Positions 17,741-45,417 of a DNA stretch of 64,000 nt are shown here, piece after piece; the first letter of the stretch is position 1, and every line of letters starts with the position of its first letter. A model generated the notes under the pieces. It was given only the letters and a program-made list of their open reading frames with translations, had not been told where the DNA came from and did not search any database. The stretch is from contig JAJYNP010000005.1 in the NCBI GenBank assembly GCA_021786265.1, positions 100,650 to 164,649 of the forward strand. The letters are read 5' to 3'. The translations under genes were made by a program, and so were the position numbers. The stretch is from Chloroflexota bacterium. Its GTDB lineage: Bacteria; Chloroflexota; Limnocylindria; Limnocylindrales; CSP1-4.

Positions 17741-18374
17741 GGGCGGCGGGCGGCGGGCGGCAGCTCTGCCGCCCGCATCCTGGACCCGATGCCGCCCCGT
17801 CGCGGCACGTCGGACGACGAGGGAGGCCCGGGCGACACCCCGGTCAGCGTGGCGTGGCTGCGCGGGGATGGCCCCACCTCCGCTCCCGCATCACTACCGA
17901 CCGGCGGCCGACCCTTCCCTGCCCACGCCGCCCCCGCATCACTACAAGTGTTGCCGGGCCGACTTCGTGGGGAGGAGGGGTTGACCGTGACGAAGCTGCA
18001 GGCCGACGCATCACTACAAGAGTTGCCGGGCCGACTTCGTGGGACTCGGTTGGAGGAGTGCGGTGGATGGGACGAGTCTTCCTCTCCAGGCGCCGCAGAT
18101 GACGCGGCGCGTGACGCAGCACGGCAGGGGTTTCGCGGCGCCTACGAGACGGTCCCCGCCGTGAGCGGGGGCGCAGGTGCTCGGTTGATCCGGGATGAAG
18201 GCCCGCCGCGCCCGGTTCCGCGGCCGCTCAACATTACAAGTGATACGGCCCGCGGGAGCGTCTCCGCCGGCGAACGGCCGGTCTCGGCCCACCCAGCCTC
18301 CCACCCGAGCGTCGCCCGCCTCGAGCCCGAGCCGCCGCCCGAGCGCCGGCCCGGCTCCACCGCCGGTCTGTCGC
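17741..18374. repeat. Repeat-filled gap inside the mutasome cassette (CACT-n-CAAGTG elements)
   Basis: This 630-base stretch sits where ImuB and the N-terminal half of DnaE2 should be. It holds a perfect 10-base inverted repeat (GCGGGCGGCA/TGCCGCCCGC, 17753-17776). It also holds two near-identical copies of a 37-base element, 17936-17972 and 18008-18044: both begin GCATCACTACAAG and continue TTGCCGGGCCGACTTCGTGG, with one mismatch between them. A partial copy (GCATCACTAC) lies at 17888. A diverged copy, ATTACAAGTGATACGGCCCG, lies at about 18233-18252. No protein-coding frame is credible here. Confidence 0.6.
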
Positions 18375-20303
18375 CCTGGGAGCGCTGGCTGGAGCTCTGT
18401 GCCCGCATCGACGGCTGCCGAGGCACCTGGGCACCCACGTCGGCGGCATGCTCGTCACCGCCGCCCCCCTCGTCGAGATCGCGCCGCTCGAGCGCGCGAC
18501 GATGCCCGGCCGCGTCGTGGTCCAGTTCGACAAGCGCGACGTCGAGACGATGCAGCTCATCAAGCTCGACCTGCTCGGCCTGCGCATGCTCTCGGCGATG
18601 GACGACGCGCTGCGCGACATCACCGCCGACTGCGGCGTGGTGCTCGACCTGGACCGCCTGCCGGAGGACCTGCCCGACGTCTTCCGCATGATCCGCGCGG
18701 CCGACACCACCGGCGTCTTCCAGATCGAGTCGCGGGCCCAGATGCAGACCCTCCCGAAGTCCGCGCCGTCCACCCTCGACGACCTGGTGGTGGAGGTCGC
18801 GATCATCCGGCCGGGCCCCATCCAGGGGAACGCCGTCCACCCGTACCTGCGCCGCCGGCAGGGGCTCAAGCCGGTCGCGTACCTGCATCCCGCGCTCGAA
18901 CCCATCCTGCGCGAGACGCTCGGCGTGATCCTCTACCAGGAGCAGGTGATGGAGATCGCCATCCGGGTGGCGGGGTTCAGCGCGGCCGAGTCGGACGGCC
19001 TCCGGCGGGCCATGGGGACCTGGCGCTCGAGCCGCGAGATGGAGACGCTCCACCGGGCCTTCGTGGAGGGCTGCGAGCGCGTGAGCGGCCTGGCCGAGGA
19101 GCAGGCGGAAGAGCTCTTCCGGCATGTGGCCGCCTTCGCGAGCTTCGGCTTCAACAAGAGCCACGCGGCGGCGTTCGCCCGGACCGCGTACGAGTCGGCG
19201 TTCCTGAAGCTCTCCTACCCCGCGCAGTTCACCGCGGGGCTCATCAACAACCAGCCCATGAGCTTCTACCCGGTGGAGGTGCTGGTCAACGACGCGAAGC
19301 GCCACGGCGTGGCCGTGCTGCCCGTGGACCTGAACCGCAGCCGCTACCGCAGCACGACCGAATGGGCGGGGATGCCTGGCGAGCCGCTCCCCGAGGGCTG
19401 CGGGATCGCCCGGCGACCGGAGGTCGTGCGCTCGTCGGGGTGTGTCGTGCCGGACAGGCAGGCACGGCGGCAGCTGGCGGCCGAGCCGGCGCAGGGGTAC
19501 GGGGTACGGCTCGGGCTGCACCTGGTCAAGGGGATCGGCGAGGAGCATGCCGAGCGGCTGGACGGGGAGCTGGGGCGGGGCCCGTACCGCTCGCTGGCGG
19601 ATGTCGTGGCGCGGACGGGCCTGGCCGAGGAGGTGGTCGAGCGGCTGATCCGGGCGGGTGCACTCGACTCGCTGGGCCGGCCGCGGCGGGAGCTGTTCTG
19701 GCAACTCCGCGAGGTGGCGGCGTCGACGGGCCGGCAGACGATGGGGCGCGCGCGTCCGGCGCAGACGGCCATCCCGCTCGATCTCCGCCTTCCCCCCCCA
19801 CCGAGGCGCCCGAGCTGCCTCCACCCTCCGAGCTGGAGCGTCTGGCCGACAGCTACGCGATCCTCTCGCTCGATGCGCGACGCCAGGTGGTGGAGCTGTT
19901 CCGCCCGACCCTCGAGCGACTGGGGGCACGGCCGATCGCCCGACTCTCGGAGCACCCGCCGGGGCGCGTCCGGATCGGCGGCCTCGTCGTGACGCGCCAG
20001 CATCCGATGACCGCCAGGGGCACGGTCTTCCTGGCCCTCGAGGACGAGACAGCCATGGCGAACGTCACTCTCTGGCCGGACACCTGGGCTAGGCTGGGCG
20101 GCGTTGTCCGGCGGCACGCGCTCCTCTTCGTGGAGGGCGAGCTGCAGCGCGAGGGGAGCGTGGTCAACCTAGTGGCGCGGCAGGTCTGGCCGCTCCCCGA
20201 GATGGCCCGGGGCGTCGGCGGATCGGGGCGACCCGCAGGCGTACGGCAGCTCGGCTACGCGGGGACGCGGGGACGCAGGGACGCAGGGACGCGGCGAGGG
20301 TGA
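18375..20303 (+). pseudogene. dnaE2: 5'-truncated, frameshifted error-prone DNA polymerase III alpha (DnaE2)
   Basis: Homology starts at PWERWLELCARIDG (18378), shifts frame by one base at GGCTGCCGAGG near 18418, and continues RHLGTHVGGMLVTAAPLVEI. A long clean stretch follows: GRVVVQFDKRDVETMQLIKL, GLRMLSAMDDAL, TGVFQIESRAQM, VEVAIIRPGPIQGNAVHPYL, LGVILYQEQVMEIA and FGFNKSHAAAFARTAYESA. A run of eight C's (19792-19799) causes another shift. The OB-fold end then reads on as ELERLADSYAILSLDARRQV and RGTVFLALEDETAMANVTLW. The PHP domain and first palm aspartates (about 450 residues) are missing. DnaE2 is the SOS mutagenic polymerase; this copy cannot be a full enzyme. Confidence 0.8.
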
Positions 20304-20682
20304 AATGCGTGGACGGCGAGCGCCTCCGGGGTCGAGACGAGCACCACCCAGGCGATCATGTCGACCGTGGTCTGTTCGGACCCCAGGCCGCAGGCCACCG
20401 CGCATCGGTGACCACCCTGGCCTTCTGCGCCGACTTCGGCGGGCCCTGGCGGGCCCACACCTCGACGAGGATCGGCGGATCGGCGGAGGCTCCGTCCACG
20501 GTCACCTGGACGCCTCCGTCGAGGGGGAAACGCTTCACCAGAAGTGGGACGTCGAGCTCGCGAGCGAGTGCGGCCAGGATGATCGCCTCCGCCTCGCGCT
20601 GTTCAGCACTGTCGCCGGGCAGCAGTGTGGAGCCATCCGCTTGCCGGTGGTTCAGTCCCGGCCCCTGGCCTCCGGCGCTCAC
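20255..20682 (-). pseudogene. Frameshifted conserved hypothetical protein, third gene of a coupled module
   Basis: A GTG at 20682 overlaps the upstream 56-residue gene's stop by four bases (GTGA). The frame reads GDSAEQREAEAIILAALARE, LDVPLLVKRFPLDGGVQVTV and DGASADPPILVEVWARQGPP, then KSAQKARVVTDA. One base later the continuation is in the next frame: ACGLGSEQTTVDMIAWVVLV and STPEALAVHAFHP. The product resembles a small widespread hypothetical with 'PPILVE..AHQGPPK.AQ..KV..DALKL'. The shift near 20410 should truncate it, so it is called a pseudogene; a single-base assembly error would restore it. Confidence 0.5.
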
Positions 20683-20849
20683 CGCCCCCACAGCAAACGC
20701 CAGAAACCACCGCGGGCGAGCGCCCGCCCGACGATGCGGTTCTTCGCCCGGCGAGCCATGCGGTGCGGGTTGCCCGATGTGAGGGCCGAGACGTCGTTCG
20801 CCAGTCGGGCCGTCCGGTACAGCTGCGACACGAGCCCCCGTCCCCTCAT
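20679..20849 (-). CDS. 56-residue basic conserved small protein
   Basis: The ATG at 20849 overlaps the stop of the upstream 86-residue gene by four bases (ATGA), and its own TGA overlaps the next gene's GTG, so three genes are coupled in a row. The product begins MRGRGLVSQLYRTARLANDV and continues SALTSGNPHRMARRAKNRIV, ending ARGGFWRLLWGR. It is strongly basic, helical, and ends in a tryptophan-rich segment. It resembles short phage- or nucleoid-like basic proteins, but I cannot assign a function. Overlap at both ends is the main reason to accept such a short gene. Confidence 0.6.
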   Translation of the reverse strand: MRGRGLVSQLYRTARLANDVSALTSGNPHRMARRAKNRIVGRALARGGFWRLLWGR

Positions 20850-21106
20850 GCCAGCGCCTCCTCGATGAACGCTGCGGCATCCTCGGCGAGCGCGGCGCGC
20901 TCCGCCTCCTCGGCCTCGATCAGCTCCAGGAGGCGTCGGGCCTGATGAGGGCGCTCCAGGCCGATCGTCAGGCCGAGGCTCAACCAGTAATCGGCCGTCT
21001 CCAGGGCGTCCGGGCGGACGTCCTCGGGGAACTCTGTGAGCGCCTCGGCCATCGCCCGATGCAGGGCGCGACCGTAGCGCTCCCAGTCATCCTCGCTCGT
21101 CGCCAT
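20846..21106 (-). CDS. Hypothetical 86-residue acidic helical protein
   Basis: The ATG at 21106 is preceded by AGGAGGAGG, one of the strongest ribosome sites in the window, and a start further upstream would add a non-homologous basic tail. The product (MATSEDDWERYGRALHRAMA..., ending ALAEDAAAFIEEALA) is acidic and almost entirely helical, with tryptophan and tyrosine in the first 60 residues (DYWLSLGLTIGLERPHQARR). It is followed by a basic 56-residue protein in a four-base overlap, an acidic/basic pairing that would suit a small complex. No family recognised. Confidence 0.65.
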   Translation of the reverse strand: MATSEDDWERYGRALHRAMAEALTEFPEDVRPDALETADYWLSLGLTIGLERPHQARRLLELIEAEEAERAALAEDAAAFIEEALA

Positions 21107-21365
21107 GGCTCCCCTCCTCCTGGGTCCGGTGGAGATCGTCGACCATCGCCTCCGCGTGCGGTATCGGAGCAGGGCGTCGCGCCCGGTGGAAACGACCATC
21201 GGCGTGCAGTGTACGGGCGCGCATCCACGCGTCCAGTCTCCCGCACGATCAGTGGATGGCGCCTCTCCCGCTGCCGCGACCAGGGAAGCGCCCGTGTGCG
21301 ATCGGTCGTACCCGCCGATCAGGTCCCTTGACGGCGGACCGACCGCGACCAATAGTCGCTGCGAC

Positions 21366-21929
21366 ATGGTCGCCACGAACGGACCCAGACCCCACGCCGC
21401 TCAGCCGACGACGGGCGCCAGCCGGGATGGGGAGCCCGTGCTCAGCGCCGCGGAAGCCGCGGCCCGGATCGGCCGCCTCTTCCCTGAGGTCTACCGCCGC
21501 TACCACTACGCACAGCGGCTGCACCACGGGGCCGACCTCCCGGTCACGAGGCAGGCGCTCCGGGTACTCCAGCACCTGTCCGCGAGCGGGCCGCTCACCG
21601 TCGGGGAGCAGGCGGTCCACCTGGGTCTGCGGCGCAACTCGGTCTCGGAGCTGCTCCAACGGCTCGAGGTCAAGGGCCTGGTCGCCCGGGTCCGCGACGA
21701 GCGGGACGAGCGACGGGTCCTGGTCTGGCTCACCGATGCGGGTCGCGCGGTCATCGCCCGCGTGGGCGAGGTGCTTGCGCCGGACTTGCTCGGGGATGCG
21801 CTGGCGGCTCTCTCGCCGGCCGAGCGGGCCACGGTGGTCCGCGGCTTCGAGCTGCTCGCTGCTCATCAGCCAGCCCAACTTCATGCTCCGCCCCGCCCGG
21901 GGCCGGTCCACGAAAGGACACCACGATGA
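21366..21929 (+). CDS. MarR-family transcriptional regulator
   Basis: A 187-residue regulator. The winged helix is clear: LPVTRQALRVLQHLSASGPL, then TVGEQAVHLGLRRNSVSELL (recognition helix), QRLEVKGLVARVRDERDERR, and the wing VLVWLTDAGRAVIARVGEVL. Helices at both ends form the MarR dimer interface. The first 40 residues are probably disordered. MarR proteins bind palindromes near their own promoters and release on binding phenolics, drugs or oxidants. The ATG of the zinc-ribbon gene overlaps its stop by four bases, so that protein is probably its co-expressed partner or first target. Confidence 0.9.
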   Translation: MVATNGPRPHAAQPTTGASRDGEPVLSAAEAAARIGRLFPEVYRRYHYAQRLHHGADLPVTRQALRVLQHLSASGPLTVGEQAVHLGLRRNSVSELLQRLEVKGLVARVRDERDERRVLVWLTDAGRAVIARVGEVLAPDLLGDALAALSPAERATVVRGFELLAAHQPAQLHAPPRPGPVHERTPR

Positions 21930-22171
21930 CCGTCGCCGCCTGCGAGTCCTGCGGCATGCCCCTGGCCACCGACACCGACCACGCCCTGGCCGACCCGGCC
22001 ATCCCGTACTGCCACTACTGCGCCCCGGAGGGCACTCTGCCGGCCCCTGAAGAGCGCCTGGAGCGCTTCATCCAGTGGACCATGCGCCAGGAGGGCCTGG
22101 ACCACGATGTGGCCCGGGCGAAGGCGCTGGCCTACATGAAGACGATGCCGGCCTGGAAGGACGCCTTCTAG
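21926..22171 (+). CDS. Putative zinc-ribbon protein (Zn_ribbon_2 type)
   Basis: An 81-residue protein. The zinc ribbon is formed by CESCGMPL (two cysteines, residues 6 and 9) and YCHYCAPEG (two cysteines, about 29 and 32). A helical tail follows (EERLERFIQWTMRQEGLDHD, then ARAKALAYMKTMPAWK). This matches the small 'putative zinc ribbon domain' family often found beside transcription regulators. The start overlaps the MarR stop (ATGA), so the two proteins are made together. It may bind the regulator or a small ligand; that is inference. Confidence 0.85.
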   Translation: MTVAACESCGMPLATDTDHALADPAIPYCHYCAPEGTLPAPEERLERFIQWTMRQEGLDHDVARAKALAYMKTMPAWKDAF

Positions 22172-22205
22172 GTCTCAACCCCGTCCACCCCGCCGTCGCA
22201 GCGGC

Positions 22206-22544
22206 TCATGGCCTGGATGGATCCTCGCGCGACAGCAGATAGAGGGCCATCACGAGCGGCGTGCGTGCGAGCACGCTGTGCCTGGTGTCGGCGGGGATCC
22301 GGAGCCACGTTCCCGGGACCGCGGCGTAGGCATCGTCCCCGGCGGTGAGGTCGCCCTCCCCGGACAGGATGTGGATGATCGCCGGGCGGGCCGAGGTGTG
22401 CTCGGAGAGCCGCTCGCCCGCGGCGAAGGCGAACAGGACGAGTTCGACCCCGGCCTCGTTTGAGAGGGTCTGGCTGTGGATCCCGCGGGCCGGCACGGGG
22501 GCTTCGGCGATCAGGTCCCGGAAGAACGTGCGGGTCGTGCTCAT
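22206..22544 (-). CDS. Single-domain cupin protein
   Basis: A 112-residue cupin_2-type beta-barrel. Motif 1 is diverged (FAFAAGERLSEHTSARPAIIHILSGEGDL, with H and E positions), and motif 2 appears as PGTWLRIPADTRHSVLA with its histidine. The ATG at 22544 directly precedes the STTRTFFRDLIAEAPV helix. Such small cupins bind a metal and often act as sugar or quercetin-type sensors or isomerases; no specific role can be read. It faces the zinc-ribbon gene in convergent orientation. Confidence 0.85.
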   Translation of the reverse strand: MSTTRTFFRDLIAEAPVPARGIHSQTLSNEAGVELVLFAFAAGERLSEHTSARPAIIHILSGEGDLTAGDDAYAAVPGTWLRIPADTRHSVLARTPLVMALYLLSREDPSRP

Positions 22545-22760
22545 GGCTCCACGATAGCGCGCGCGAGGCGAGCAAGCGGGCCTGACCGTCGGCCCGACCT
22601 CCGGCATCTGGAGACGGCGGCTGTACCGGCCTGCCTGATCTGGCCTCAGCGCCCGGGCTCCTCCCCTCGGCGCGCGCCTCGTCCGGTGGGATGGGCGGGC
22701 CCGATCACCATCAATGCGGCGGCGAGCCTGAGGGTATCCGCCACTCCGGCCGTTCGGCGC

Positions 22761-23555
22761 CTAGCGACGGAGGTGCAGCGCCACTGCCCGCGCCTGCTCT
22801 TCGAGGACATCGTCGAGCGGCGCGAACGGGACCTCGCCATAGCGCCGCCGGAGCGCGAGCCGGACCAGGTGGTCGGCAAGCGCCGGGTTCTTGGGCAGGA
22901 CGGGTCCGTGGAGGTAGGTGCCGTAGGCGTTCTGGAAGACGGCACCTTCGGTGTGGTCCTTGCCGTTGTTGCCGGCGCCCACGACGACGCGCCCGAGCGG
23001 TCGAGCCCCCGCACCGAGATAGGTCCGACCGCCGTGGTTCTCGAAGCCGACGAGTGTCCGGCCCTCCCACTCCACGACCACGTTGCCGACCATCCGCCCG
23101 CGCCCCGCGCTCGTGATGTCCCGGATGGGGACCTTCTCCTCGGCCGCCCAGTGGATCGTCTCGGCATCGAAGATCCCGAGGCCCTCGAGGTCGTCGCCGC
23201 GGAAGGGACGGTAGCGGCGGCCCCACATCTGGTAGCCCGCGCAGATGAGGAGCGCGACGCTGCCTGCGTCGATGGCCTCGCGGATGGCGTCGCCCTTCGC
23301 CACCACGAGGTCCCGGGCGATCAGGCGCTGCTGCGAGTCGGCGCCCCCGCCCATGAAGAAGAGATCGACGGCGTGCGGTTCGATCGGCGTGCCGGCCTCG
23401 AGCGGCAGGATCTCGACGTCGATGCCCCGCCAGCGGCAGCGCTGCTGCAGACACAGCACGTTCCCCCAGTCGCCGTACTGACTCAAGACGCTGGGATAGA
23501 GGTAGCCGATCGTCAGCTTGACCGCGCTCGGGGAAGACGCGCCGGGCGTGCTCAC
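22761..23555 (-). CDS. gatD: Lipid II isoglutaminyl synthase, glutamine amidotransferase subunit GatD
   Basis: A 264-residue CobB/CobQ-like class I glutaminase. The nucleophile is C105 in ALLICAGYQMWGRRY, and the catalytic histidine is H216 in YGTYLHGPVLPKN; FENHGGRTYLG is also typical of GatD. With MurT it amidates the alpha-carboxylate of D-glutamate in lipid II, a step of Gram-positive-type peptidoglycan synthesis. The GTG at 23555 is chosen because it lies 28 bases after the MurT stop and leads to AVKLTIGYLYPSVLSQYGDWGN at the fold's first strand. It is the third gene of a methyltransferase-MurT-GatD operon. Confidence 0.93.
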   Translation of the reverse strand: MSTPGASSPSAVKLTIGYLYPSVLSQYGDWGNVLCLQQRCRWRGIDVEILPLEAGTPIEPHAVDLFFMGGGADSQQRLIARDLVVAKGDAIREAIDAGSVALLICAGYQMWGRRYRPFRGDDLEGLGIFDAETIHWAAEEKVPIRDITSAGRGRMVGNVVVEWEGRTLVGFENHGGRTYLGAGARPLGRVVVGAGNNGKDHTEGAVFQNAYGTYLHGPVLPKNPALADHLVRLALRRRYGEVPFAPLDDVLEEQARAVALHLRR

Positions 23556-23583
23556 GACCGTGGGTCTCCCGTGCCGCAGGCGC

Positions 23584-25002
23584 TCACGCCTGCCAGAAGG
23601 GGACGAGGTGCCCGCGCCGCACGAACCCCTCTCGCAGCGCCCACATCGCCGTGTACGTCGCGATGATCGTGAGCTCCTCGCCGGGCGGGGTCCGGCGCAG
23701 GCCCTCGGCGACGGCATCCGCCAGGGCGGGGATCGTCGACAGCGTGGGACGGCCGTCCGGCGGACCCTCGAGGACCCCCGCGTACTTGAGCCGTACCGCC
23801 AGATCGGCGGCGCGGTGGCCCGAGGCGATCACCCACTCGAGGCGGCCGCAGAGCTGCTCGAAGGCGACGTCCCAGATCCACGAGACGTCGCGGCTGTCCT
23901 GCGTGTTGTCGTTGAGCGCGAGGACGAGCCGCAGCGTGCTGCGGGTGCGGAGCAGGATCTCTGTGACCTGGTCGAAGCTGCTGGGGTTCTTCACCAGCGC
24001 GAGCAGCACCCGCCGACCATCGACCTCGAACCGCTCCAGCCGGCCGAAGGCCCCCGGCACGTCCCCCACCGCCTCCCTCACGACGTCGGGTCGGACACCG
24101 AGACTGTACGCGGTCGCCGCCGCCGCGATCGCGTTGTACGCGTTGAAGATGCCGGGCAGCGGCACCGCGAGGGTCTGCGGCCCCCAGGGCGTCTGCAGCT
24201 TGATCGTGGAGCCCTCGAGCCCCCCGACCTCGACGTGCCACGCCGAGAGGCGGGGCGTCGGCCGGTGCCAGCCGCAGGAGGCGCACGCATAGTGCCCCAG
24301 GTGTGCGTAGAAGGAGAGGCTGTACTGGAGGTCGCTCGCACAGCGCGGGCAGCGGCGCGAGTCGGCGCTGTGCTGCAGGCGCGACCGGCCCCAGCGTCCG
24401 TCCTCCAGCCCGTAGTAGAGCACCGGGTTCGAGACGGACTCCCCGAGATAGGCCACCAGCGGGTCGTCGGCGTTGAGGATCAGCGTCGTGGAGGCCGGGA
24501 GCCGCTGGAGCGCCGTCGCCCACAGCGACGCCACGAAATCGACCTCGAAGTAGCGGTCGAGCTGGTCGCGGAAGAGGTTCGTGATGAGGATCATCCGGGG
24601 CGCCAGCCCGTCGATCACCGCGGGCAGATGGCCTTCGTCCACCTCGAAGATCCCGATCAGGTGCTCGCTCGCCGGAAGCCGTCCCCGCCAGCTGGCCTCG
24701 GCCAGCAGCGTGGTCGTGATGCCGCGCAGCATGTTCGACCCCTCACGGTTCGTGAGTGGGGTGAGGCCGGCGCCCCGGACCGCCGCCACGATCATCCGTG
24801 TGCTGGTGGTCTTGCCGTTGGTACCGGTGATGAGGAGCGAGCCGTTCGGGATGTGCTGCGCCAGCTCACCGGCCAGCCGCGGATAGATCCGCTCGGCGAC
24901 GAGACCGGGGAGCGAGGTCCCACCGCGGCCCGACCGGCGCAGCAGCCAGCGGGTCCCCTTGCCCGCCTCGAGGGCGACCAGCCCGGCGGCGTTGGGAGAC
25001 AC
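23584..25002 (-). CDS. murT: Lipid II isoglutaminyl synthase, Mur ligase subunit MurT
   Basis: A 472-residue Mur-ligase homologue. It has the ATP loop GTNGKTT at 60-66, the DUF1727 C-terminal domain, and the MurT-specific zinc ribbon C218-x2-C221 ... C240-x2-C243 inserted in the central domain. The LNADDP (176-181) and FNAYNAIAAAATAY motifs follow the family. MurT activates the D-glutamate carboxylate of lipid II with ATP and receives ammonia from GatD, encoded 28 bases downstream. It starts with a GTG at 25002, 16 bases after the methyltransferase stop, so the three genes are co-transcribed. Presence of the pair implies amidated, monoderm-type peptidoglycan. Confidence 0.95.
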   Translation of the reverse strand: MSPNAAGLVALEAGKGTRWLLRRSGRGGTSLPGLVAERIYPRLAGELAQHIPNGSLLITGTNGKTTSTRMIVAAVRGAGLTPLTNREGSNMLRGITTTLLAEASWRGRLPASEHLIGIFEVDEGHLPAVIDGLAPRMILITNLFRDQLDRYFEVDFVASLWATALQRLPASTTLILNADDPLVAYLGESVSNPVLYYGLEDGRWGRSRLQHSADSRRCPRCASDLQYSLSFYAHLGHYACASCGWHRPTPRLSAWHVEVGGLEGSTIKLQTPWGPQTLAVPLPGIFNAYNAIAAAATAYSLGVRPDVVREAVGDVPGAFGRLERFEVDGRRVLLALVKNPSSFDQVTEILLRTRSTLRLVLALNDNTQDSRDVSWIWDVAFEQLCGRLEWVIASGHRAADLAVRLKYAGVLEGPPDGRPTLSTIPALADAVAEGLRRTPPGEELTIIATYTAMWALREGFVRRGHLVPFWQA

Positions 25003-25018
25003 GGACCGACAGCCCCGC

Positions 25019-32293: not shown

Positions 32294-32528
32294 CGCACCC
32301 TCGGGGGCCATTCCCCGAACGGATCGTTGGCGGCAGGCACCTGCCCGCCAGGCGTCCACGATCGGCCGGGCCACTTCCCCACGTGGTCCGAGTCCGAGGC
32401 TCGGGCCACGACCCTGCGCCGGTCGCGCAACAAACCCATCATACGCGCTCGCCTGCGTCCGAGGCAGCTGCTGGCCTCCGCACCATCAAGTGATGGCGTT
32501 GGGTCCCGGGAGTTGTCGCGCGCCGACC

Positions 32529-37468: not shown

Positions 37469-37838
37469 GAGCTCTGTCAGAGCCCCGACAATCGTGGTCG
37501 GCGCGCCCCCAGCAGCTCGCGGTTCCGTCGTTCACGATCGAGACCTGGTGGGCGCGACTACCCGGCCACGATGCCGGAACCGCCCTGCTCTGGTCCAGCG
37601 AGCGGCGAGGCCAGTCGGCTGCCGGACGTGGGTGAAGATGCACGGCACCCCCAGGACCCCTCGGTCGGCAACGGACAACGCGACGTACGACATCGGCGGG
37701 ATGATCCCGTGGTCGGCACCGGCGAAGCCGAGCGCGCCGGTGCTGGCGATGACCGCACCCGACCGGCGGCGCCCCGCCCGGCTGCGCAGCGTGCGCTGCT
37801 CGTTGGCGAGGCCGCGCAAGCCCGATCACGCAGAGCGA

Positions 37839-38228
37839 CTATCCCGTGGCGGCCGGCGGCTCACCTTGCCATGCATGCGCGGTGATCGCGAGGCAGGCGG
37901 CGCCGCCAGCGAGAGCGATCGCGCCACCCGTGAGACCCCAGCTTCCGGGGTTGCCGGGCACGGCGATTGCCGCCACGCCCAGATAGAGGAGACAGGCGCC
38001 GACCAGGAGCGCCAGCTCGTCGGCACCCCGGACCTGCGCGTGCAAAGCCTGCCACACGAGCGGGACGAAGCAGGCACCGGCGACGACTGCGAGGGCGAGC
38101 AGGGGCCAGTCGATGGGCCTCCGCCAGAACGGCGCCAGCAGCCGTCGCGGTTCGGGATAGACGAGCAGCAGGAGCAGCGATGCGCAGGCGAGGAGGACCT
38201 GCGGGTCGAACGGGAGATTCGCCACCAC
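37839..38228 (-). CDS. Small hydrophobic membrane protein, possibly 5'-truncated
   Basis: About 129 residues from a GTG at 38228, with four hydrophobic segments (LLACASLLLLLVYPEP, WPLLALAVVAGACFVPLVWQ, LALLVGACLLYLGVAAIAVP, WGLTGGAIALAGGAACLAIT). The reading frame continues upstream without a stop through the tRNA-Arg gene region, so the N-terminus may have been lost. The family is not recognised; short loops and strong hydrophobicity suggest a four-helix membrane bundle. Its 3' end faces the S53 remnant. Confidence 0.4.
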   Translation of the reverse strand: MVANLPFDPQVLLACASLLLLLVYPEPRRLLAPFWRRPIDWPLLALAVVAGACFVPLVWQALHAQVRGADELALLVGACLLYLGVAAIAVPGNPGSWGLTGGAIALAGGAACLAITAHAWQGEPPAATG

Positions 38229-38362
38229 GTCCGCGACAAGCGCGAACGTCCAGCGCCGGACCTCCGGGTGCGGCCTGGGCCCACGCCCAGACGAGCGGCG
38301 ACAGGGTCGGGAGCGTCCTCGCCATCGAGGTCGGCAGGCTGCTCTGGTCACGGGAGCTGTGG

Positions 38363-38435
38363 CGTCCCCGGCAGGATTCGAACCTGCGACCGACCGCTTA
38401 GAAGGCGGTTGCTCTGTCCACTGAGCTACGGGGAC
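38363..38435 (-). tRNA. tRNA-Arg (anticodon TCT)
   Basis: Read on the minus strand the sequence folds as a complete cloverleaf: acceptor GTCCCCG with CGGGGAC, D arm GCTC-AGTGGACA-GAGC, anticodon stem ACCGC/GCGGT with loop CTTCTAA (anticodon TCT), a short variable loop, T arm GCAGG-TTCGAAT-CCTGC, and discriminator G. CCA is not encoded. It lies between two protein genes. Such tRNA 3' ends are common integration sites, but no integrase is present in the window. Confidence 0.95.
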
Positions 38436-38531
38436 CCGGGCGAATCGTACCGTGCCATGCGAACGCGACCGTCGTGTCCCTGCGAACGTGACCGGCGCGC
38501 GCGGCCAACCGGGTGCTAGATTCGTGGCTCC

Positions 38532-39908
38532 GTGCCCGGCGTGGGCGCCGACGAGGGCCTGGCAGTGACGCTCGCGCGGCGTCCCGAGCCCGCGCATCGC
38601 CCCCGGTCGCAGGCCGCGCCGTCGATCCCGGACGAGCTGCCGCCGTTCCCGATCGAGCTCGAGTGGAAGACGCAGCGGCGGCTCTGGGGTCACGCCTTCC
38701 ACCCCATGTGCAGCTACCTGGCGTCGTTCCCGGCCGGGCTCGCGCACGCGTTCATCGGGCGATATACGCGCCCGGGCGACGTGGTGCTCGATCCGTTCAG
38801 CGGCCGCGGCACCACGCCGCTGCAGGCGTGCGCCGAGGGTCGCCTGGGTGTCGGAAACGACCTGTACCCGCTCGCCCACCTGCTGACCGCGGCCAAGGTC
38901 GACCCACCCGAACCTCCCGAGCTGTTCGACCGCCTGGACGAGCTCCGCGCGGGGTGGATGGCACGGGCCGCGGGCCGCCCCGGCCGCGCGTCCGACGAGT
39001 CGCCCGAGGTCGCCCTTGCCTTCCACCCACGGACGCTCGACCAGCTCCTCTACCTGCGCTCGACGCTCGATCCGGCGGATCGGGCAGACCGGTTCCTGAC
39101 GGCGACGACCGCGGGCATCCTCCACGGCCGCGGCAACGCATTCCTGTCGACCCTGATGCCGAACGCGTTCGCGCTGCCGCCGTCGTACGTGCGCCGGTAC
39201 GCAGCGGCGAGCGGCTTCGTGCCGGAGGAGCGCGACGTTTTCGACGCTCTCCGCGCGAAGACGCGGCGGCTGCTGCGGGACTCACGTCCGCCGGTGCGGG
39301 GACTGGCGCTCCTGGGGGACGCGCGGGACGCCGGCACCCGCACGCGCGATGCGCTCCGCGAGCGCTCTCTGCCGGGACGTGCACGCCTGGTGGTCACCAG
39401 CCCGCCATACCTGCGCGTGGTCCGGTACGGGGCGTTCAACTGGCTCCGGCTCTGGTTCCTGGGGCTCGTGCCCGAGGAGGTCGACGCCACGCTCGATCAC
39501 GCGCACCGGCCGCAGGCCTACCTGGGGTTTCTTCGGGAGGTCCTGGCGGGTCTGCGCGTCGTGCTGGCCGACGACGCCGTCGTCGTGCTCGTGCTCGGCG
39601 ACGTCGAGTCGGACGGGGGCCACCGGCTCCCGCGCGAGATCGACCTGGCGGCACGGGCGTGGGAGGAGGCGGCCCAGCCGGAGGGATACCGGCTCGCCGG
39701 CATCGCCGTCGACGAGATCGCAGCCCATCGCAAGTCGACGAAGCTCTGGGGAGACGAGGCGGGGCGGGCCACGCGGATCGATCGCCTGCTGGTGATCGCG
39801 CCCACGGAACTCGGGAGGCGCCGGGCGCTGGCGGCCGCGGCGTTCCCGATCGACTGGACCTGGCCTCCCCCGACCCGGCCCGGTCTGGTCGCTCAGGGCA
39901 GCCGGTAG
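38532..39908 (+). CDS. Site-specific DNA methyltransferase (N4-cytosine/N6-adenine class)
   Basis: A 458-residue protein. Motif I (SAM binding) is DVVLDPFSGRGTTPLQAC at 83-100 and motif IV is TSPPYLR at 289-295; SPPY is typical of N4-cytosine or N6-adenine amino methyltransferases. The N-terminal IELEWKTQRRLWGHAFHPMC and the middle FHPRTLDQLLYLRSTLDPAD match the 'DNA methylase N-4/N-6' group lacking a clear target domain. Motif I precedes motif IV, an alpha- or gamma-like order. No restriction endonuclease or specificity subunit lies nearby, so it is a solitary methyltransferase (epigenetic or protective). The GTG at 38532 is the first start in frame. Its 3' end overlaps the convergent glycosyltransferase gene by 16 bases. 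Confidence 0.85.
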   Translation: MPGVGADEGLAVTLARRPEPAHRPRSQAAPSIPDELPPFPIELEWKTQRRLWGHAFHPMCSYLASFPAGLAHAFIGRYTRPGDVVLDPFSGRGTTPLQACAEGRLGVGNDLYPLAHLLTAAKVDPPEPPELFDRLDELRAGWMARAAGRPGRASDESPEVALAFHPRTLDQLLYLRSTLDPADRADRFLTATTAGILHGRGNAFLSTLMPNAFALPPSYVRRYAAASGFVPEERDVFDALRAKTRRLLRDSRPPVRGLALLGDARDAGTRTRDALRERSLPGRARLVVTSPPYLRVVRYGAFNWLRLWFLGLVPEEVDATLDHAHRPQAYLGFLREVLAGLRVVLADDAVVVLVLGDVESDGGHRLPREIDLAARAWEEAAQPEGYRLAGIAVDEIAAHRKSTKLWGDEAGRATRIDRLLVIAPTELGRRRALAAAAFPIDWTWPPPTRPGLVAQGSR

Positions 39909-41380
39909 AGGCAGGTCTCGCCCGGGCCCCAGGCCACGCACAGCTCCCTGGTGCGCGCCTCCCATGCCGCCCGGTGGAGCGCCGCCCACTCGGGAGCCGG
40001 ACCCGGCGTCAACACCCACCGGACGCCGCGCGTCTCGTACAGGTCGCCGGGGTTCACGCTGGTCGCGGGCCGCGACACGATGGTCGTCGCGCGCGCCTGC
40101 ATGGCGAGCACCGGCGCGAGGTCCCCCTGGATCACGGATCCCGGGGGCACCAGGGCGGCGATCCGTGCCTGGACAGCGGGCAGCGTCGAGGGCGTGGAGG
40201 TCACCCAGCCGAGGTCGAGGGCCACGCCGGGCGCGACGAGGGCGATGGCGAGCGCGAGGCCGGCACCCGCGGCGAGGATCCGTCGCTCTCCCGCCCACCG
40301 CACGGCCAGCGCGAACCCGAGGCCGGCGAGCACGGCCAGCGGCGGCAGGAGCGGGACCAGGTACCGGTTCGGGCGGTACGGGACGACCAGCAGGACGCCC
40401 ATCCCGACGGCGAACCAGCCGACGCACGCCGCGGCGAGGCGCCGCTGCTCCGCCGTCAGGTCGGCGCGGCGCACGAGGACCAGGAACAGCCCACCGGCAC
40501 CCGCGACCAGCAGCGGCAGCGCGAGCGGAATGCCGCCGTCGCTGCGGGTCGGGTACGACGTGATCCGACGGATGAGCTCGGTGACACTGTGCGGCAGCGG
40601 CTCCGGGGCCCAGATCCGGAGGTCGGTGGCCAGCGCGGCCGGCTGCGGGAGGGCGAAGACGGCCGCCCACGCGAGCGCCACGACGAGCAGGCCGAGGACG
40701 GCGCCCGCGACCGCGCGGCGGATTCCGGCTTCCCTCCACCCGGCCAGCGCCACACCACCGAGCATCCCCGCGGCCGCGAACCCCGCGCTGGCCTTGGTGG
40801 CGATCGCCAGCGCCAGCGCGACCCCCGCGAGGACGCCGGTCGCCAGCGAGGGACGGGATCGCGCGAGGAGCGCCAGCGCGGCGATCAGCCAGAGCATCAC
40901 CAGCGGTTCCAGGTAGGCCAGCCGGCCGTAGTAGAGCAGCAGCGCCGAGCCACCGAGCGCGGCGGCGGCGAGCGACGCGCCGACCGCGCCCAGCTGCCGT
41001 CGCAGCCCGACGCCGAGCGTGGCCAGCGCGACCGCCACGCAGGCGATCACGAGGAGGCGCGCCTGCACGATCCCGACCCCGGCGATCGCCAGCCACGCGG
41101 CCTCCAGCGCGCTGAACGGGAAGTTCAGCATGTACATCCGCCAGTCGTCGGTGGCCCACGCCCCGAACAGCACCAGGTTGCGCGCGTTCGCGACGTTCCA
41201 GCCCTCATCGGTGTACGGGCTGGTGCTGGCGGTCACGCCTCGGGCCGGATCGACGGCCACGGCAGTCACGAGCAGCACGAGGAAGGTCAGTGCGATCAGC
41301 ACCGGGACCGCGATACCGGGCGAACGGAAGGGCCCCGGGCGCAGTCCAGGACGGCGGCCCGGGGAGCGGAGCGCCGGCAC
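39893..41380 (-). CDS. GT-C family membrane glycosyltransferase (ArnT/PMT-like)
   Basis: A 495-residue protein with about eleven membrane helices. The signature acidic pair of GT39/GT83 enzymes occurs in the first extracellular loop, YTDEGWNVANARNLVLFGAW (D-E). GRLAYLEPLVMLWLIAALAL is the next conserved loop. The C-terminal 100 residues (VLAMQARATTIVSRPATSVN and GVRWVLTPGPAPEW) are extracellular. Such enzymes transfer a sugar from a polyprenyl-phosphate donor to protein, lipid or cell-wall glycan. It starts with a GTG at 41380, eight bases after the small upstream gene's stop, so the pair is co-transcribed. Confidence 0.82.
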   Translation of the reverse strand: MPALRSPGRRPGLRPGPFRSPGIAVPVLIALTFLVLLVTAVAVDPARGVTASTSPYTDEGWNVANARNLVLFGAWATDDWRMYMLNFPFSALEAAWLAIAGVGIVQARLLVIACVAVALATLGVGLRRQLGAVGASLAAAALGGSALLLYYGRLAYLEPLVMLWLIAALALLARSRPSLATGVLAGVALALAIATKASAGFAAAGMLGGVALAGWREAGIRRAVAGAVLGLLVVALAWAAVFALPQPAALATDLRIWAPEPLPHSVTELIRRITSYPTRSDGGIPLALPLLVAGAGGLFLVLVRRADLTAEQRRLAAACVGWFAVGMGVLLVVPYRPNRYLVPLLPPLAVLAGLGFALAVRWAGERRILAAGAGLALAIALVAPGVALDLGWVTSTPSTLPAVQARIAALVPPGSVIQGDLAPVLAMQARATTIVSRPATSVNPGDLYETRGVRWVLTPGPAPEWAALHRAAWEARTRELCVAWGPGETCLYRLP

Positions 41381-41388
41381 GCCCTCGG

Positions 41389-41616
41389 CTACGAGCGGAT
41401 CTCCCGCCTCGCCATCTCGCCCTCGATCTGCCGCTCGGCCTCCACGTACCGGTCGATCTGGTCGCGCACCTGGTTGGCCTCCGGCGTGTAGAGATGCACC
41501 TGCTGCTGGAGGATGTAGCTGAGGCGGCGGCTCGTCATCCGGACGTGGTCCAGGTTCTTCATCAGGACGAGCGGATCCATCGAGGCGAGATCGTCGGGGT
41601 GGTACATCTGGCGCAT
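41389..41616 (-). CDS. Small helical protein encoded before the glycosyltransferase
   Basis: A 75-residue protein, MRQMYHPDDLASMDPLVLMK... ending GEMARREIRS. It is charged and fully helical, with a glutamine/arginine-rich C-terminal half (RVRDQIDRYVEAERQIEGEM-like pattern) compatible with a short coiled coil. It lacks a signal or membrane segment. The stop lies eight bases before the glycosyltransferase GTG, so it may be a cytoplasmic partner or regulator of that enzyme. Family not recognised; an in-frame ATG nine codons upstream would lengthen it slightly. Confidence 0.55.
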   Translation of the reverse strand: MRQMYHPDDLASMDPLVLMKNLDHVRMTSRRLSYILQQQVHLYTPEANQVRDQIDRYVEAERQIEGEMARREIRS

Positions 41617-41664
41617 CGGGGCCGAGTATAGGGGCGGCGGCACGACGGTGCCGACCGACGCCAG

Positions 41665-41695
41665 AACGCCCCGCCGGTCTCCCGGACGGGGCGTT
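41665..41695 (-). terminator. Long GC hairpin between the 107-residue gene and the GT operon
   Basis: AACGCCCCG (41665-41673) pairs with CGGGGCGTT (41687-41695), and inside it CCGG pairs with CCGG around TCTC, giving a 13-pair stem with one bulged A. There is no clear T-tract on the minus strand and a short one (TTCCTCC) on the plus. It likely terminates transcription of the gene ending at 41746. Confidence 0.5.
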
Positions 41696-41745
41696 CCTCC
41701 GCGGCGATGATCGCCGTCACGATGGCAGTCGGTGGCCGGCCCTTC

Positions 41746-42069
41746 CTAACCCGCCCCCACTGGCTCGGGTGCCGGGCGTCGCGCCGCCCCCCTCCGCGCC
41801 GCGGCCCTCCGTTCCGCCGCGCGGGCGCACTCCGCTTGCACGAGGCTGCTCACCAGCGCCGCGAGTGCGGGCAGATCCGGCAGCGTGAACCGGATCCCGT
41901 GGTCCGCCAGCTCCATGTATCCCCACCCGCGGTAGAGGCCCCGGGCCGCCACCGCGCTCATCTCGTCGTACAGCTGCGGCCAGGAGACCGGGTGGCGTGC
42001 GTAGCAGAAGCGCACGAAGTCCACCGCCTCGGCGGTCGCTCCCGCACTGCGGGACCCGGCAGGCTCCAT
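41746..42069 (-). CDS. Hypothetical protein with aromatic SWPQLYDEM motif
   Basis: A 107-residue protein. The ATG at 42069 follows AAAGGAGGG, a very strong ribosome site. The core (DFVRFCYARHPVSWPQLYDE, MSAVAARGLYRGWGYMELAD, HGIRFTLPDLPALAALVSSL) is helical with conserved-looking aromatic residues. The C-terminal 25 residues are arginine/alanine-rich (AAERRAAARRGAARRPAPEP) and probably disordered or nucleic-acid binding. I do not recognise the family. It stands between the epimerase operon and the GT operon on the same strand, isolated by a hairpin downstream. Confidence 0.6.
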   Translation of the reverse strand: MEPAGSRSAGATAEAVDFVRFCYARHPVSWPQLYDEMSAVAARGLYRGWGYMELADHGIRFTLPDLPALAALVSSLVQAECARAAERRAAARRGAARRPAPEPVGAG

Positions 42070-42257
42070 CAATACAGACTCCCTCCTTTCCCCTACGCGG
42101 AACGCCCCGCTCCACGGGCGCGATCCAGCCCTCCAACGGCGTCCGCCCCGTGCCCCCACAGGCCACCGGGGTCTTCGGTGGGACATCCTAGGAGCGGTGG
42201 CCGGGTCGAGGAAGGGGTTCTGTCCACGACGTTGTCCACCAACTTGTCCACACGCGG

Positions 42258-43331
42258 TCAGGCCCGCAGGCGAACCCCCAGGCCAGGCGCGTCGGTCAGT
42301 CGCCAGCGACAGTCGTCGGACAGCTCCAGCCCCTCGTACGGGTCGGCCGCGAGCAGGAGCGAGCCGTCCAGGTCCACCCAGTCGGCCAGCGAGGCGACGG
42401 CCGCGGAGGCCGCGATCCCGACGCTCGTCTCCTCCATGCAGCCCAGGAACCGGCGGAGGCCCAGCTCCCGCGCCCGCTCCAGCATCCGTTTTGCCGGACC
42501 CACGCCCCCGCACTTCGCCAGCTTCACGTTCACGCCCTGGACCACGCCGACCAGCCCCTCCAGGTCGTCGTAGACCACGCAGCTCTCGTCGGCGACGATC
42601 GGCAGGCTCGAGCGTTCCTGCAGCCAGCGGAGCTGGTCGAGCCGGTGGGCGGGGAACGGTTGCTCGATCAGCTCGACCCCCAGCCGCTCCAGCTCGGGCA
42701 CCAGCCGGACCGCCTGTTCGGGCGGCCAGCCGGTGTTGGCGTCCACCCGGATCGGCCCGCCGTACACCGCGCGCACCGCCTCCAGCGTCTCGAGGTCCGC
42801 CGGGCCGCCGACCTTGATCTTGAGCGCCGGGAACCGGGTCGCCCGGGCCGCCCGCCGGCCCACCACGTCGGGCGTGTCGATGCCGATCGTGAAGTCGGTC
42901 GGAGGGATGCCGGGCGGCAGCTCGAGCAGCTGGTACACCGGCACGCCCAGGCGCTTGGCCGCCAGGTCGTGCAGCGCGATGTCGACCGCGCACTTCGCCG
43001 CCCCATGGTGGCGGATCGCCGCGTCCATGGCCGCCGAGGCCGCCTCGAGCGCGATCCGTGTCTCCGCCAGGTCCCGTCCCACCCGCTCCTCGAACGGGTC
43101 GACCGCGTCGAGGAGCAACGGCATGACGGCCGCGATCGTGTCGGGGTTCTCGCCGTAGTAGGTGTCCGGGAACCCCTCGCCCAGGCCGCTGCGGCCGGCC
43201 TCGCGATCTGCCGCTGCCGACAGCTCGGCGACCACGGTCACGGCGACCTCGCCGCTCATGTCGCGGGCGATGCGGAACGGGTCGCGGAACGGGATCCGGA
43301 GCGTGTCGGTGCCGACGCGCAGGCTGCTCAT
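42258..43331 (-). CDS. Dipeptide epimerase-like enolase-superfamily enzyme
   Basis: A 357-residue enolase-superfamily protein. The capping domain covers the first 110 residues. The barrel holds catalytic FPALKIKVGG (K-x-K), metal ligands IRVDANTGW (D), LIEQPFPAHRLDQ (E) and PIVADESCVV (D/E), and VNVKLAKCGGVGPA with the second catalytic lysine. This pattern fits L-Ala-D/L-Glu or other dipeptide epimerases, which invert the alpha-carbon of a peptide residue. The ATG at 43331 overlaps the DUF1611 stop by four bases (ATGA), so the two proteins act together. In the D-glutamate pathway (DgcN/DgcA-type) these same two families pair; substrate here is inferred from that. Confidence 0.85.
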   Translation of the reverse strand: MSSLRVGTDTLRIPFRDPFRIARDMSGEVAVTVVAELSAAADREAGRSGLGEGFPDTYYGENPDTIAAVMPLLLDAVDPFEERVGRDLAETRIALEAASAAMDAAIRHHGAAKCAVDIALHDLAAKRLGVPVYQLLELPPGIPPTDFTIGIDTPDVVGRRAARATRFPALKIKVGGPADLETLEAVRAVYGGPIRVDANTGWPPEQAVRLVPELERLGVELIEQPFPAHRLDQLRWLQERSSLPIVADESCVVYDDLEGLVGVVQGVNVKLAKCGGVGPAKRMLERARELGLRRFLGCMEETSVGIAASAAVASLADWVDLDGSLLLAADPYEGLELSDDCRWRLTDAPGLGVRLRA

Positions 43332-44422
43332 GCGGTGACCTCCGAACGATCGACCCAGGGAAGCGCCTCCACGCGCTCGCGGAGGCCGGCAAACAGCGGC
43401 CCGCCGCCGAAGCGGAACGGATCGTCGCAGGGCAGCCCCGTTGCGGCCGCCGTCCGCGCGATCTCCCGTCGCGCCGAGTCCTCGTCGAGCAACGAGGTGT
43501 TGAGCGCGACGGCCACCACCCGGCTGGGCGCCACGAGCCCCGCGATCTCCTCGTGGATCCGGATCATCTCGGGGAGCGGATGGAGCGGGAACGAACGCTC
43601 CGGCAGATGGTCGAAGTCGTGCGCCGCCAGCCCCGGCTTGTGCACGAGCACCATCGCGTGGGGGGTGAAGCCGTGGATCAGCCCCAGCGTGACCGAGCTG
43701 TACGCGGGGTGGTCCAGCGAGCCCTGCCCCTCGACGAAGACCCAGTCGCCACCGGCCTCGCCCTCCTCGCTCATCCACTCGCAGGTGCCCTGCACGAAGT
43801 CGCTCACGACACGGTCGATCGCGACGCCCCAGCCCTCGATCATGATCCCGGTCTGGCCGGTGGCGACGAAGGACGTCGAGAGCCCGGCCTCCCGCGCCGC
43901 GCGGTGCAGCTCGAGCGCCACGCTCATCTTGCCGATGGCGCAGTCGGTGCCGACGGTCAGGATCACCCGCGACCCGGTCCGGTGGAGCCGTCCCACCGAC
44001 GTCTCCATGCGTTCGGGCGGCTTCCGGTAGTCGACCAGGTCGACCCCGGCGCGGGCCGCCGCCGCGACGAACTCCGGGTCGTCGGACACGAACGTGTGGA
44101 GACCGGAGAGGACGTCGAGGCCGGCGTGGATCGCCCGCAGGATCATCGTGCGCCAGGATGGCGGCAGGCGCCCACCGGTCGGCGCGATCCCGATCAGAAG
44201 CGCCGTCGGGCCCAGTGCGAGCACCTCGTCGAGGGTCGCCACGACCGGCACGTCGAAGTCCGGGCCGAGCAGGTCGCTGGCGTTGCGCCCGGCCCGTGTC
44301 GAATCGATGATCGCGAGGACCGGGTCGGGGCCGTACCGGATGACACCGAGGGCCGTCTTCGCGGCGTGTGGCCGGAACTCGCCCTCGGCGAGGACGACGA
44401 GCCGGCGTGGGCTCCTGGACAT
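43328..44422 (-). CDS. DUF1611 (DgcN-type) P-loop protein
   Basis: A 364-residue protein of the DUF1611 family: an N-terminal Rossmann-like domain (RRLVVLAEGEFRPHAAKTAL, DPVLAIIDSTRAGRNA) and a C-terminal P-loop domain with VGTDCAIGKMSVALELHRAA, the phosphate-binding GTDCAIGK. The motif FVATGQTGIMIEGWGVAIDR and EGQGSLDHPAYSSVTLGLIH are family hallmarks. Relatives include DgcN, a D-glutamate N-acetyltransferase, and proteins paired with dipeptide epimerases. The downstream epimerase is coupled by an ATGA overlap. The ATG at 44422 is preferred over the upstream frame, which runs through the tRNA-Glu gene. Confidence 0.88.
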   Translation of the reverse strand: MSRSPRRLVVLAEGEFRPHAAKTALGVIRYGPDPVLAIIDSTRAGRNASDLLGPDFDVPVVATLDEVLALGPTALLIGIAPTGGRLPPSWRTMILRAIHAGLDVLSGLHTFVSDDPEFVAAAARAGVDLVDYRKPPERMETSVGRLHRTGSRVILTVGTDCAIGKMSVALELHRAAREAGLSTSFVATGQTGIMIEGWGVAIDRVVSDFVQGTCEWMSEEGEAGGDWVFVEGQGSLDHPAYSSVTLGLIHGFTPHAMVLVHKPGLAAHDFDHLPERSFPLHPLPEMIRIHEEIAGLVAPSRVVAVALNTSLLDEDSARREIARTAAATGLPCDDPFRFGGGPLFAGLRERVEALPWVDRSEVTA

Positions 44423-44542
44423 GCGACCTCCGCTGCAGCGCGACGGGACGCGGGGCCCCCCTGAGAAGACGAGTGTATCGGCCGGCGCGCGAGGGCATGA
44501 ATCCAGGCGCCCCCGGGGGATCGGGGGCGCGGCAGTGGGCGG

Positions 44543-44619
44543 TGGTACCGCATATCGGATTCGAACCGATGATCTCCGCCTTGAGAGGGCGGTGTCCTGG
44601 GCCTCTAGACGAATGCGGC
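44543..44619 (-). tRNA. tRNA-Glu (anticodon CTC)
   Basis: On the minus strand the cloverleaf is complete: acceptor GCCGCAT with ATGCGGT (G-T at 1-72), D arm GTC-TAGAGGCCCAG-GAC, anticodon stem CCGCC/GGCGG with loop CTCTCAA (anticodon CTC), and T arm ATCGG-TTCGAAT-CCGAT. Discriminator A is followed by an encoded CCA (44543-44545), unlike the tRNA-Arg gene in this window. It is 120 bases upstream of the DUF1611 operon. Confidence 0.93.
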
Positions 44620-44683
44620 ACGGACGTCGTCGCGGGGCGCGGCGAAGCGGCGCGAATGGTACCACAGCAGGCCGGCCGGCCCG

Positions 44684-45417
44684 GACCACTGGCCCAGGCG
44701 GGATGAACGCGGCGCGCCGCCGGGGGTTGCGCCGCCGGGCGTCCGCGGCCGCCAGGTCTCCGCCGCCGGGGGTTGCGCCGCCGGGCGTCCGCCGCCGGGG
44801 GTTGCGCCGCCGGGCGTCCGCGGCCGACCCTCCGCAGCCGACCCTCCGCGGCCGGGCGTCCGCGGCCGACCCTCCGCGGCCGACCCTCCGCGGCCGGGCG
44901 TCCGCGCATCACTTCAAGTGTTGCCCGGCCATCTGGTCGGGCGCAGTTGGCGGCGCGCGGTCAGCCGCACGGGACCTTCCCGGCCACCGCCGCAGTCGAC
45001 GCGGAACAGCGGGCACTGCGAGACACCCAAACGTCGGTGCCGCGGGCCCACGGGCCCGGGGCGCGTGCTGCGACCGATGCTGACGCTCGTCCGCGCCGCT
45101 TCACCCCGCTGGCGAACACTTCAAGTGATACGGCGGCCCGCTGGTCGAGGGTGGGCTCGGGGACCTGCTGTTCCGCCACGCCATCAGTGGCGCGAGACCC
45201 TGGGCGCCCGCGAGACCCCCAAGCGCGGAAAGACCTCGAGCGCCGGCACGGCCGAAGTCGCCGGTGGGGCATCCGGCACGGCCGAAGCCTCCGGCGGGGA
45301 CCACCGGCCCAGGCGGGATGAACGCGGCGCGCCGCCGGGGATCGGCCGCCAGGTCTCCGCCGCCGGGGGTTGCGCCGCCGGGGGTTGCGCCGCCGGGGGT
45401 TGCGCCGCCGGCGCAGC
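44684..45417. repeat. Low-complexity duplicated repeat block with CACT-n-CAAGTG elements
   Basis: No gene is credible in these 730 bases. A module of about 110 bases is duplicated: both copies contain GGCCCAGGCGGGATGAACGC, GGCGCGCCGCCGGGG and GCCGCCAGGTCTCCGCCGCC (starts near 44692 and 45308). The first copy is followed by several GTTGCGCCGCCGGGCGTCCG units and four GCCGACCCTCCGCG-like units. The second is followed by three GCCGCCGGGGGTTGC units. Between them, CACTTCAAGTGTTGCCCGGC (from 44910) and CACTTCAAGTGATACGGCGG (from 45117) are near-palindromic copies of the element also found inside the mutasome cassette. Confidence 0.6.

Follow-up and report, generated by a model that had tools for sequence, protein, structure and literature searches.

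Introduction

Several short repeats resembling the one treated here have been described, and they are cited below as far as the available parts of the respective papers go. Chunjie-1 is a 235-bp miniature inverted-repeat transposable element (MITE) of Geobacter uraniireducens (PMC10969869). The IS605-related palindrome-associated transposable elements (PATEs) of Haloquadratum have palindromes near their ends, no inverted repeats and no duplication of the target, and occur as divergent copies with core deletions (PMC3119063). Repetitive extragenic palindromic (REP) sequences are tagged with GTAG or CGTC at one end of their stem-loop (PMC3733652). In a comparison of four clades, the family CSP1-4 (class Limnocylindria) is reported to have the longest intergenic spacers and a raised density of transposases (PMC13212565). 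The present work concerns a repeat around the near-palindrome CACTwcAAGTG in a 64-kb stretch of contig JAJYNP010000005.1 (positions 100,650–164,649; the whole stretch, with a GC content of 72%, is called the window). The motif had been noticed in a previous reading of the letters alone (the sequence-only reading). It is assigned here to the ends of a unit of 228–241 bp, of which, as judged by alignment, the window holds two diverged copies.

The unit resembles Chunjie-1 and bacterial MITEs in its length, in lacking a gene of transposase size, in ends readable as inverted repeats and in the placing of its copies, one within a disrupted gene region and the other intergenic (PMC10969869, available part). 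It differs from bacterial MITEs in that no target-site duplication was found, no parent transposon is known and the near-complete copies are two. With the Haloquadratum PATEs, as they appear in the excerpted report (PMC3119063), it shares similar palindromes near the ends, a direct core, the lack of a detected target duplication, divergent interiors and solitary ends. Unlike them, it has flanks that are closer to inverted, hairpins that are ordinary for the window and no IS605-type gene in the scanned open reading frames (ORFs); the PATE host is archaeal, whereas the host of the present element is probably a member of the Chloroflexota. A short palindrome outside intact genes, possibly moved in trans by a transposase, is likewise found in REP sequences (PMC3733652, in part), but here no consistent GTAG or CGTC tag is present and the palindromes are paired around a related interior of about 190–200 bp.

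Two Copies of a Unit with Palindromic Ends

Pattern scoring of the window with the left-end pattern GCATCACTWCAAGTGTTGCC gave full agreement (20/20) at 17936 and 44906, and 19/20 at 18008, where CAAGAG stands for CAAGTG; the top score among 20 first-order Markov shuffles was 16. The right-end pattern AACACTTCAAGTGATACGG scored 19/19 at 45115 and 17/19 at 18230, where the sequence is AACATTACAAGTGATACGG, against a top score of 14 in 20 such shuffles. Exact counts were also high: CACTWCAAGTG occurred three times on the plus strand and not once in 300 shuffles, GCATCACTW four times in the window, every time on the plus strand (shuffle mean 0.09, maximum 2), and AAGTGATACGG twice on the plus strand (shuffle maximum 1). 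The string GCATCACT was present at exactly four sites in the window (17888, 17936, 18008 and 44906), all on the plus strand and confined to two clusters, hereafter locus A (at about 18 kb) and locus B (the copy at 44.9–45.1 kb). With at most one mismatch and on both strands, CACTNCAAGTG had eight matches against 1.49 expected, a number reached by 1 of 100 shuffles; two of the eight are the locus-B palindromes read on the minus strand, and one, at 12563, falls outside the repeat family. The latter site (CACTTCAACTG, minus strand, one mismatch) is absent from the best listed left-end and right-end matches. The looser palindrome CACTNNNAGTG was only moderately enriched (three against a mean of 0.37; equalled by 3 of 300 shuffles). 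A chance origin of the motif was rejected, since the end-pattern scores and the exact counts lie far above those of shuffles. The short repeat proposed in the sequence-only reading, for which this comparison had been named as a check, is therefore real.

The same reading had listed five copies. All five cores are present, but they are not equivalent and divide into three left ends (17936, 18008, 44906) and two right ends (18230, 45115). The partial copy it placed at 17888 was recovered as GCATCACTAC, after which the sequence diverges; 17880–17897 and 17928–17945 match at 94%. This fragment breaks off right after the centre of the palindrome (CACTAC), as if cut at a hairpin loop, in a single case. 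The possible site at 32481 (CACCATCAAGTGATGG) was dropped, as it stood neither among the 12 best listed matches of each of five patterns nor among the 22 listed nhmmer matches with the element profile. The core, described as palindromic except for its centre, is perfectly so at 44.9–45.1 kb, but at 18 kb it has A for T at position 5.

The DNA between the ends is related in the two near-complete copies, A2 at locus A and B at locus B (Table 1), in which the left and right ends are spaced, start to start, by 222 and 209 bp, respectively. Global alignment of the interiors of A2 and B scored 70.5; shuffles gave 27.6 ± 10.3 and random pieces of the window 24.7 ± 11.4, and in each comparison 0 of 500 reached the observed score. 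A mononucleotide-shuffle test gave 24 against 11.8 ± 3.3 (0/500), and the reverse-complement control scored 37.5, a value reached by 130 of 500 shuffles. Over the entire copies 139 of 235 aligned columns are identical (59%), with 13 gap columns, and the end motifs are better conserved than the whole, at 18/20 (left) and 17/19 (right). No similarity between A2 and B was detectable beyond the ends, the 25 bases before the left end giving p ~0.37 and those after the right end p ~0.50. A2 and B also served to make an nhmmer profile, to which they are thus not independent matches; in a scan of the window, only 17935–17973 (the extra left end A1) was above threshold besides these two (E 7.5e-08), and the next match (E 0.097) was the reverse of B's own left end. 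The left ends of A1 and A2 are 93% identical over 42 nt. The 64 kb thus hold one near-complete copy at each of two places, along with two end fragments, and A2 and B, from their lengths (241 and 228 bp) and inspection of their six-frame translations, are too small for a transposase gene.

On the strength of these alignments, A2 and B are taken as two diverged copies of one element with palindromic ends. Their relationship extends to the DNA enclosed by the ends, and the motif therefore marks the termini of a 228–241 bp element and is not the free-standing REP or single binding site that had been envisaged. A REP in the strict sense is not supported either, since its ends would carry GTAG or CGTC consistently: up to 16 bases from each of the five cores, CGTC was found only beside the left ends of B (plus strand) and A2 (minus strand), that is, at two of five ends and on different strands, and GTAG only within the core of A1 and of the left end of A2 (minus strand).

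Nature of the Element

The 228–241 bp unit is interpreted, with about even confidence, as a non-autonomous, MITE-like mobile element of a high-GC bacterium, probably of the Limnocylindrales, with ends around the near-palindrome CACTwcAAGTG. Each end would comprise about 20 nt around this core; when inverted, the right end may be taken for a left end, the shared form being CGYATCACTwswAGTGTT. A transposase encoded elsewhere in the genome would have recognised both ends and moved the element, and the copies in the window would now be old and decaying. In the minimum-energy fold the ends of B pair together, as they do in the consensus fold of A2 and B, which is weak and includes two sequences only. 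A number of results weigh against this interpretation. The local alignment of the A2 and B interiors was not significant (24 vs. 21.3, equalled by 109 of 500 shuffles), so that the case for their relationship rests on collinear, gapped similarity. The fold of A2 is no more stable than those of its shuffles (z 0.06), and that of B is only slightly more so (z −1.58). No target-site duplication was found, there being no repeat of 3–12 bases at offsets common to A2 and B, and the longest flanking repeats, read with element boundaries that are not exactly fixed, were in the random range (4 bases for A2, in 300 of 300 random anchors; 6 for B, in 138 of 300). No transposase, integrase, Y1 or TnpB domain was above the cut-off in 48 ORFs scanned with Pfam, out of 223 window ORFs of at least 120 amino acids, many of them overlapping. 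Two near-complete copies are, moreover, too few to show mobility. The remaining adverse points concern the orientation of the ends and are given in the next paragraph. A search for a nearby transposase of the TnpA_REP type had also been suggested; no such domain was reported in the scanned ORFs. A sub-threshold match to Zn_ribbon_IS1595 (19.8 bits, cut-off 25.4) sits in a MurT ligase and was taken as the zinc ribbon of that protein.

Because the orientation of the ends is unsettled, the main rival is a PATE-like origin, which we consider possible but somewhat unlikely. The unit would then be a short derivative of the IS200/IS605 type, in which the palindrome near each end forms a single-strand hairpin on one strand, without true inverted repeats or target duplication, and the solitary ends would be leftovers of deletion between two palindromes; the published class, in the part of the report available, combines near-end palindromes, divergent copies and core deletions (PMC3119063). 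Compared directly, left-end and right-end cores share 9–11 of 11 bases, and in all six left-right pairs the core fits better in this orientation; the whole local scores are higher directly in four pairs and inverted in two. The core centre is C on the plus strand in 5/5, in line with the earlier claim of a single reading direction, and within a locus the left and right ends have the same variable core base, which is A at 18 kb and T at 45 kb. The core-adjacent bases, on the other hand, make the right ends resemble inverted left ends: the 20 core-flanking bases fit better inverted in 6/6 pairs (12–13 vs. 7–10 directly). This speaks only weakly for inversion, since left ends, being partly palindromic, also match one another inverted at 11–12/20. 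In B, the left end and the inverted right end can be aligned over 26 columns that include two mismatches and two gaps; for A2 the best local alignment of this kind is a 7-base match elsewhere, not at the end, and A1 has 8 mismatches in 28 columns against the inverted right end of locus A. Few independent events underlie these counts, since A and B are relatives. Folded as DNA, seven of the eight strands of the single-end hairpins (A1, right end of A, left and right ends of B) outdo nearly all of their own shuffles (0–6 of 200 as good; 50 of 200 for the eighth), and pairing cells amount to 76%, compared with 36–47% in slid versions. Against a PATE-like hairpin, such stability is ordinary for the window, 2–68% of 3000 random 31-mers being equally stable for the ten strands of the five ends. 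Base-pair changes are unsupportive (one pair changed on both sides vs. 1.0 in shuffles), and the left end of A2 and the right end of A fold unlike the other ends. A conserved hairpin at each end was rejected on these grounds: it beats its own shuffles, but it is common in the window and lacks support from pair changes. The failure to find a target duplication and the position of solitary and truncated ends next to A2 suit a PATE-like element; the scan of 48 ORFs, which showed neither a Y1 transposase nor a TnpB domain, counts against it. As the evidence on orientation is mixed, both mobile-element readings were kept, the one with inverted ends (MITE-like) and the one with direct palindromes (PATE-like).

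Segmental duplication, by which a non-mobile intergenic piece of about 230 bp was copied once and its palindrome survived fortuitously or because it served some local function, is improbable. Near-complete copies limited to two, an identity of 59% that would denote an old event, and the occurrence of the exact left end in no related genome agree with it; the better conservation of the end motifs than of the whole, the separate end fragments at 17888 and 17936 and the halt of similarity beyond the end motifs do not. It is very unlikely that the motif is an operator, the palindrome of a dimeric regulator such as an SOS repressor, or the site of some recombinase. Although CACTTCAAGTG is palindromic at locus B and locus A lies within an SOS-type mutagenesis cassette (see below), no good left-end, right-end or core match was present upstream of imuA among the best listed matches or in the exact counts, and the interiors are related across the whole unit, which a lone operator would not need. 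Doubtful, too, is an unnamed family of soil-Chloroflexota elements with a direct palindromic core and inverted flanks, copies of which would have helped to delete imuB-dnaE2 and which perhaps moved via single-stranded DNA. Confirmation of the MITE-like element genome-wide would define a small mobile repeat in the Limnocylindrales, the families of which are reported to differ in transposase density and intergenic length (PMC13212565, available part), and would connect elements of this sort with the decay of a cassette for inducible mutagenesis; on present evidence it is most likely a relic of a well-known kind of element.

Searches for Relatives

The exact left end CATCACTNCAAGTGTTGCC had five matches in 84,980 species genomes, a chance-like result of an exact-match search that leaves room for diverged relatives; about seven would be expected by chance (an estimate for 18 fixed bases and 257 Gb). 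These matches lay on contigs named Bdellovibrionales, Lachnospiraceae, Kuenenia, SAR86 and Cycloclasticus, with a local GC of 0.37–0.51 and no right end within 300 bp (best 10–11/19). The exact left end was not found in viral contigs; in all, four scans of these with different patterns gave 0, 1, 0 and 0 matches, the single one being AT-rich and looking like chance. When both loci were compared in distant mode with a plasmid collection, the matches spanned only 8–24% and 9–15% of the query, with best E values of 6e-3 and 3e-2. A protein search with the ORF crossing copy B had none of 7992 scored candidates at E ≤ 1.

A literature search with the core strings led to a coding palindrome of Mollicutes, TGAGACACTTCAAGTGTCTCA (PMC2996958, available part), which was rejected because its flanks and setting differ; apart from it, no bacterial dispersed repeat was recognised by title, most entries being judged by title or the start of the abstract. 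Searches on Chloroflexi together with miniature inverted-repeat elements gave, by title, nothing on elements of that phylum. The proposal of an undescribed, mobile-looking repeat therefore fits, in that the motif lies outside intact genes and no description was found in the literature searched, but the unit originally proposed was too small.

The Locus at 18 kb

As judged by homology, the region 16592–20258 is a mutagenesis cassette (imuA-imuB-dnaE2) in decay, with a shortened imuB and a dnaE2 that is frame-shifted and lacks its N-terminal part. In Thermomicrobium roseum the order is a recombinase A-like protein (357 aa), a hypothetical protein in the imuB position (416 aa) and an error-prone polymerase (1059 aa). 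The RecA-like domain of imuA shows 43% identity to a T. roseum protein, and tblastn with the 1059-aa T. roseum DnaE2 placed its residues 465–894 at 18307–19719 and 910–1056 at 19806–20258, in two frames. The T. roseum protein in the imuB position gave no tblastn match to the imuB remnant, from which similarity in another frame continues, by eye only, to about 17800. Relative to the T. roseum arrangement, about 2.5 kb is missing, as estimated from the protein lengths; the gap takes in the greater part of imuB and some 465 residues of dnaE2.

The element copies occupy the junction between the start of imuB and the dnaE2 remnant. The element may either have brought about this loss or have entered DNA that was already decaying, and the junction may also be a misassembly. 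In the case of a MITE-like element, the extra left ends and the loss in imuB/dnaE2 could stem from recombination or imprecise events that later took place between copies or their ends, in an order that we can only infer. Within the window, the five cores and the partial copy are indeed restricted to non-coding or broken DNA, as had been claimed.

Table 1. Coordinates of the element copies and of neighbouring features in the window.
Feature	Coordinates	Strand	Remarks
A0, truncated left end	17888–17897	+	GCATCACTAC; stops inside the palindrome; one of four GCATCACT sites
A1, extra left end and some inner sequence	17936–17971	+	20/20 to the left-end pattern
A2, near-complete copy (241 bp)	18008–18248	+	left end 18008–18027, right end 18230–18248
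B, near-complete copy (228 bp)	44906–45133	+	left end 44906–44925, right end 45115–45133
RecA-like domain of imuA	16844–17188	+	Pfam RecA (2.7e-20) in ORF 16592–18691
imuB N-terminal remnant, about 55 in-frame codons	17577–17742	+	six homologues (best E 4.2e-15), each with a precomputed PF00817 assignment
dnaE2 remnant, without about the first 465 residues, frame change	18307–20258	+	tblastn of T. roseum DnaE2; Pfam DNA_pol3_finger
tRNA-Glu (CTC)	44543–44619	−	copy B on its upstream side
50-bp direct repeat, left of B	44676–44725	+	94% to partner 45291–45340
50-bp direct repeat, right of B	45291–45340	+	partner 44676–44725, 615 bp apart

The Locus at 45 kb and Other Features of the Window

Locus B is situated between the tRNA-Glu gene and an ORF at 45418–47073 (minus strand) with an alpha/beta hydrolase domain. 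A second hairpin adjoining the left end of B is not preserved, by eye, at locus A. Structured RNA was rejected for both loci, as the matches to Rfam, even in permissive mode, all stayed below threshold (18.4 bits vs. 70 and 17.1 vs. 45). Around B, the region 44676–45415 contains GC-rich tandem arrays with units of 14, 15, 30 and 42 bp, and further arrays are located at 50210–50338 (units of 21/41 bp) and 52161–52258 (15 bp).

The closest named relatives of the protein encoded at 46239–47582, among the best 120 of 3711, belong to Candidatus Limnocylindrales and "Chloroflexi bacterium" metagenome-assembled genomes (76% and 71% identity). Judged by this one protein, the window most likely derives from a chromosome or contig of the Limnocylindrales (Chloroflexota). 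The ORF at 38532–39908, near a tRNA-Arg gene (38360–38435), covers only positions 162–211 of 221 of an N6/N4 DNA methylase profile and is possibly a methylase fragment. In addition, two c-di-GMP-II-GAG riboswitch aptamers were detected at 1207–1292 (minus strand) and 55757–55842 (plus strand), with 63.5 and 65.6 bits against a gathering score of 40; the second is directly upstream of an ORF (55844–57277) with alpha/beta hydrolase and TAP-like domains.

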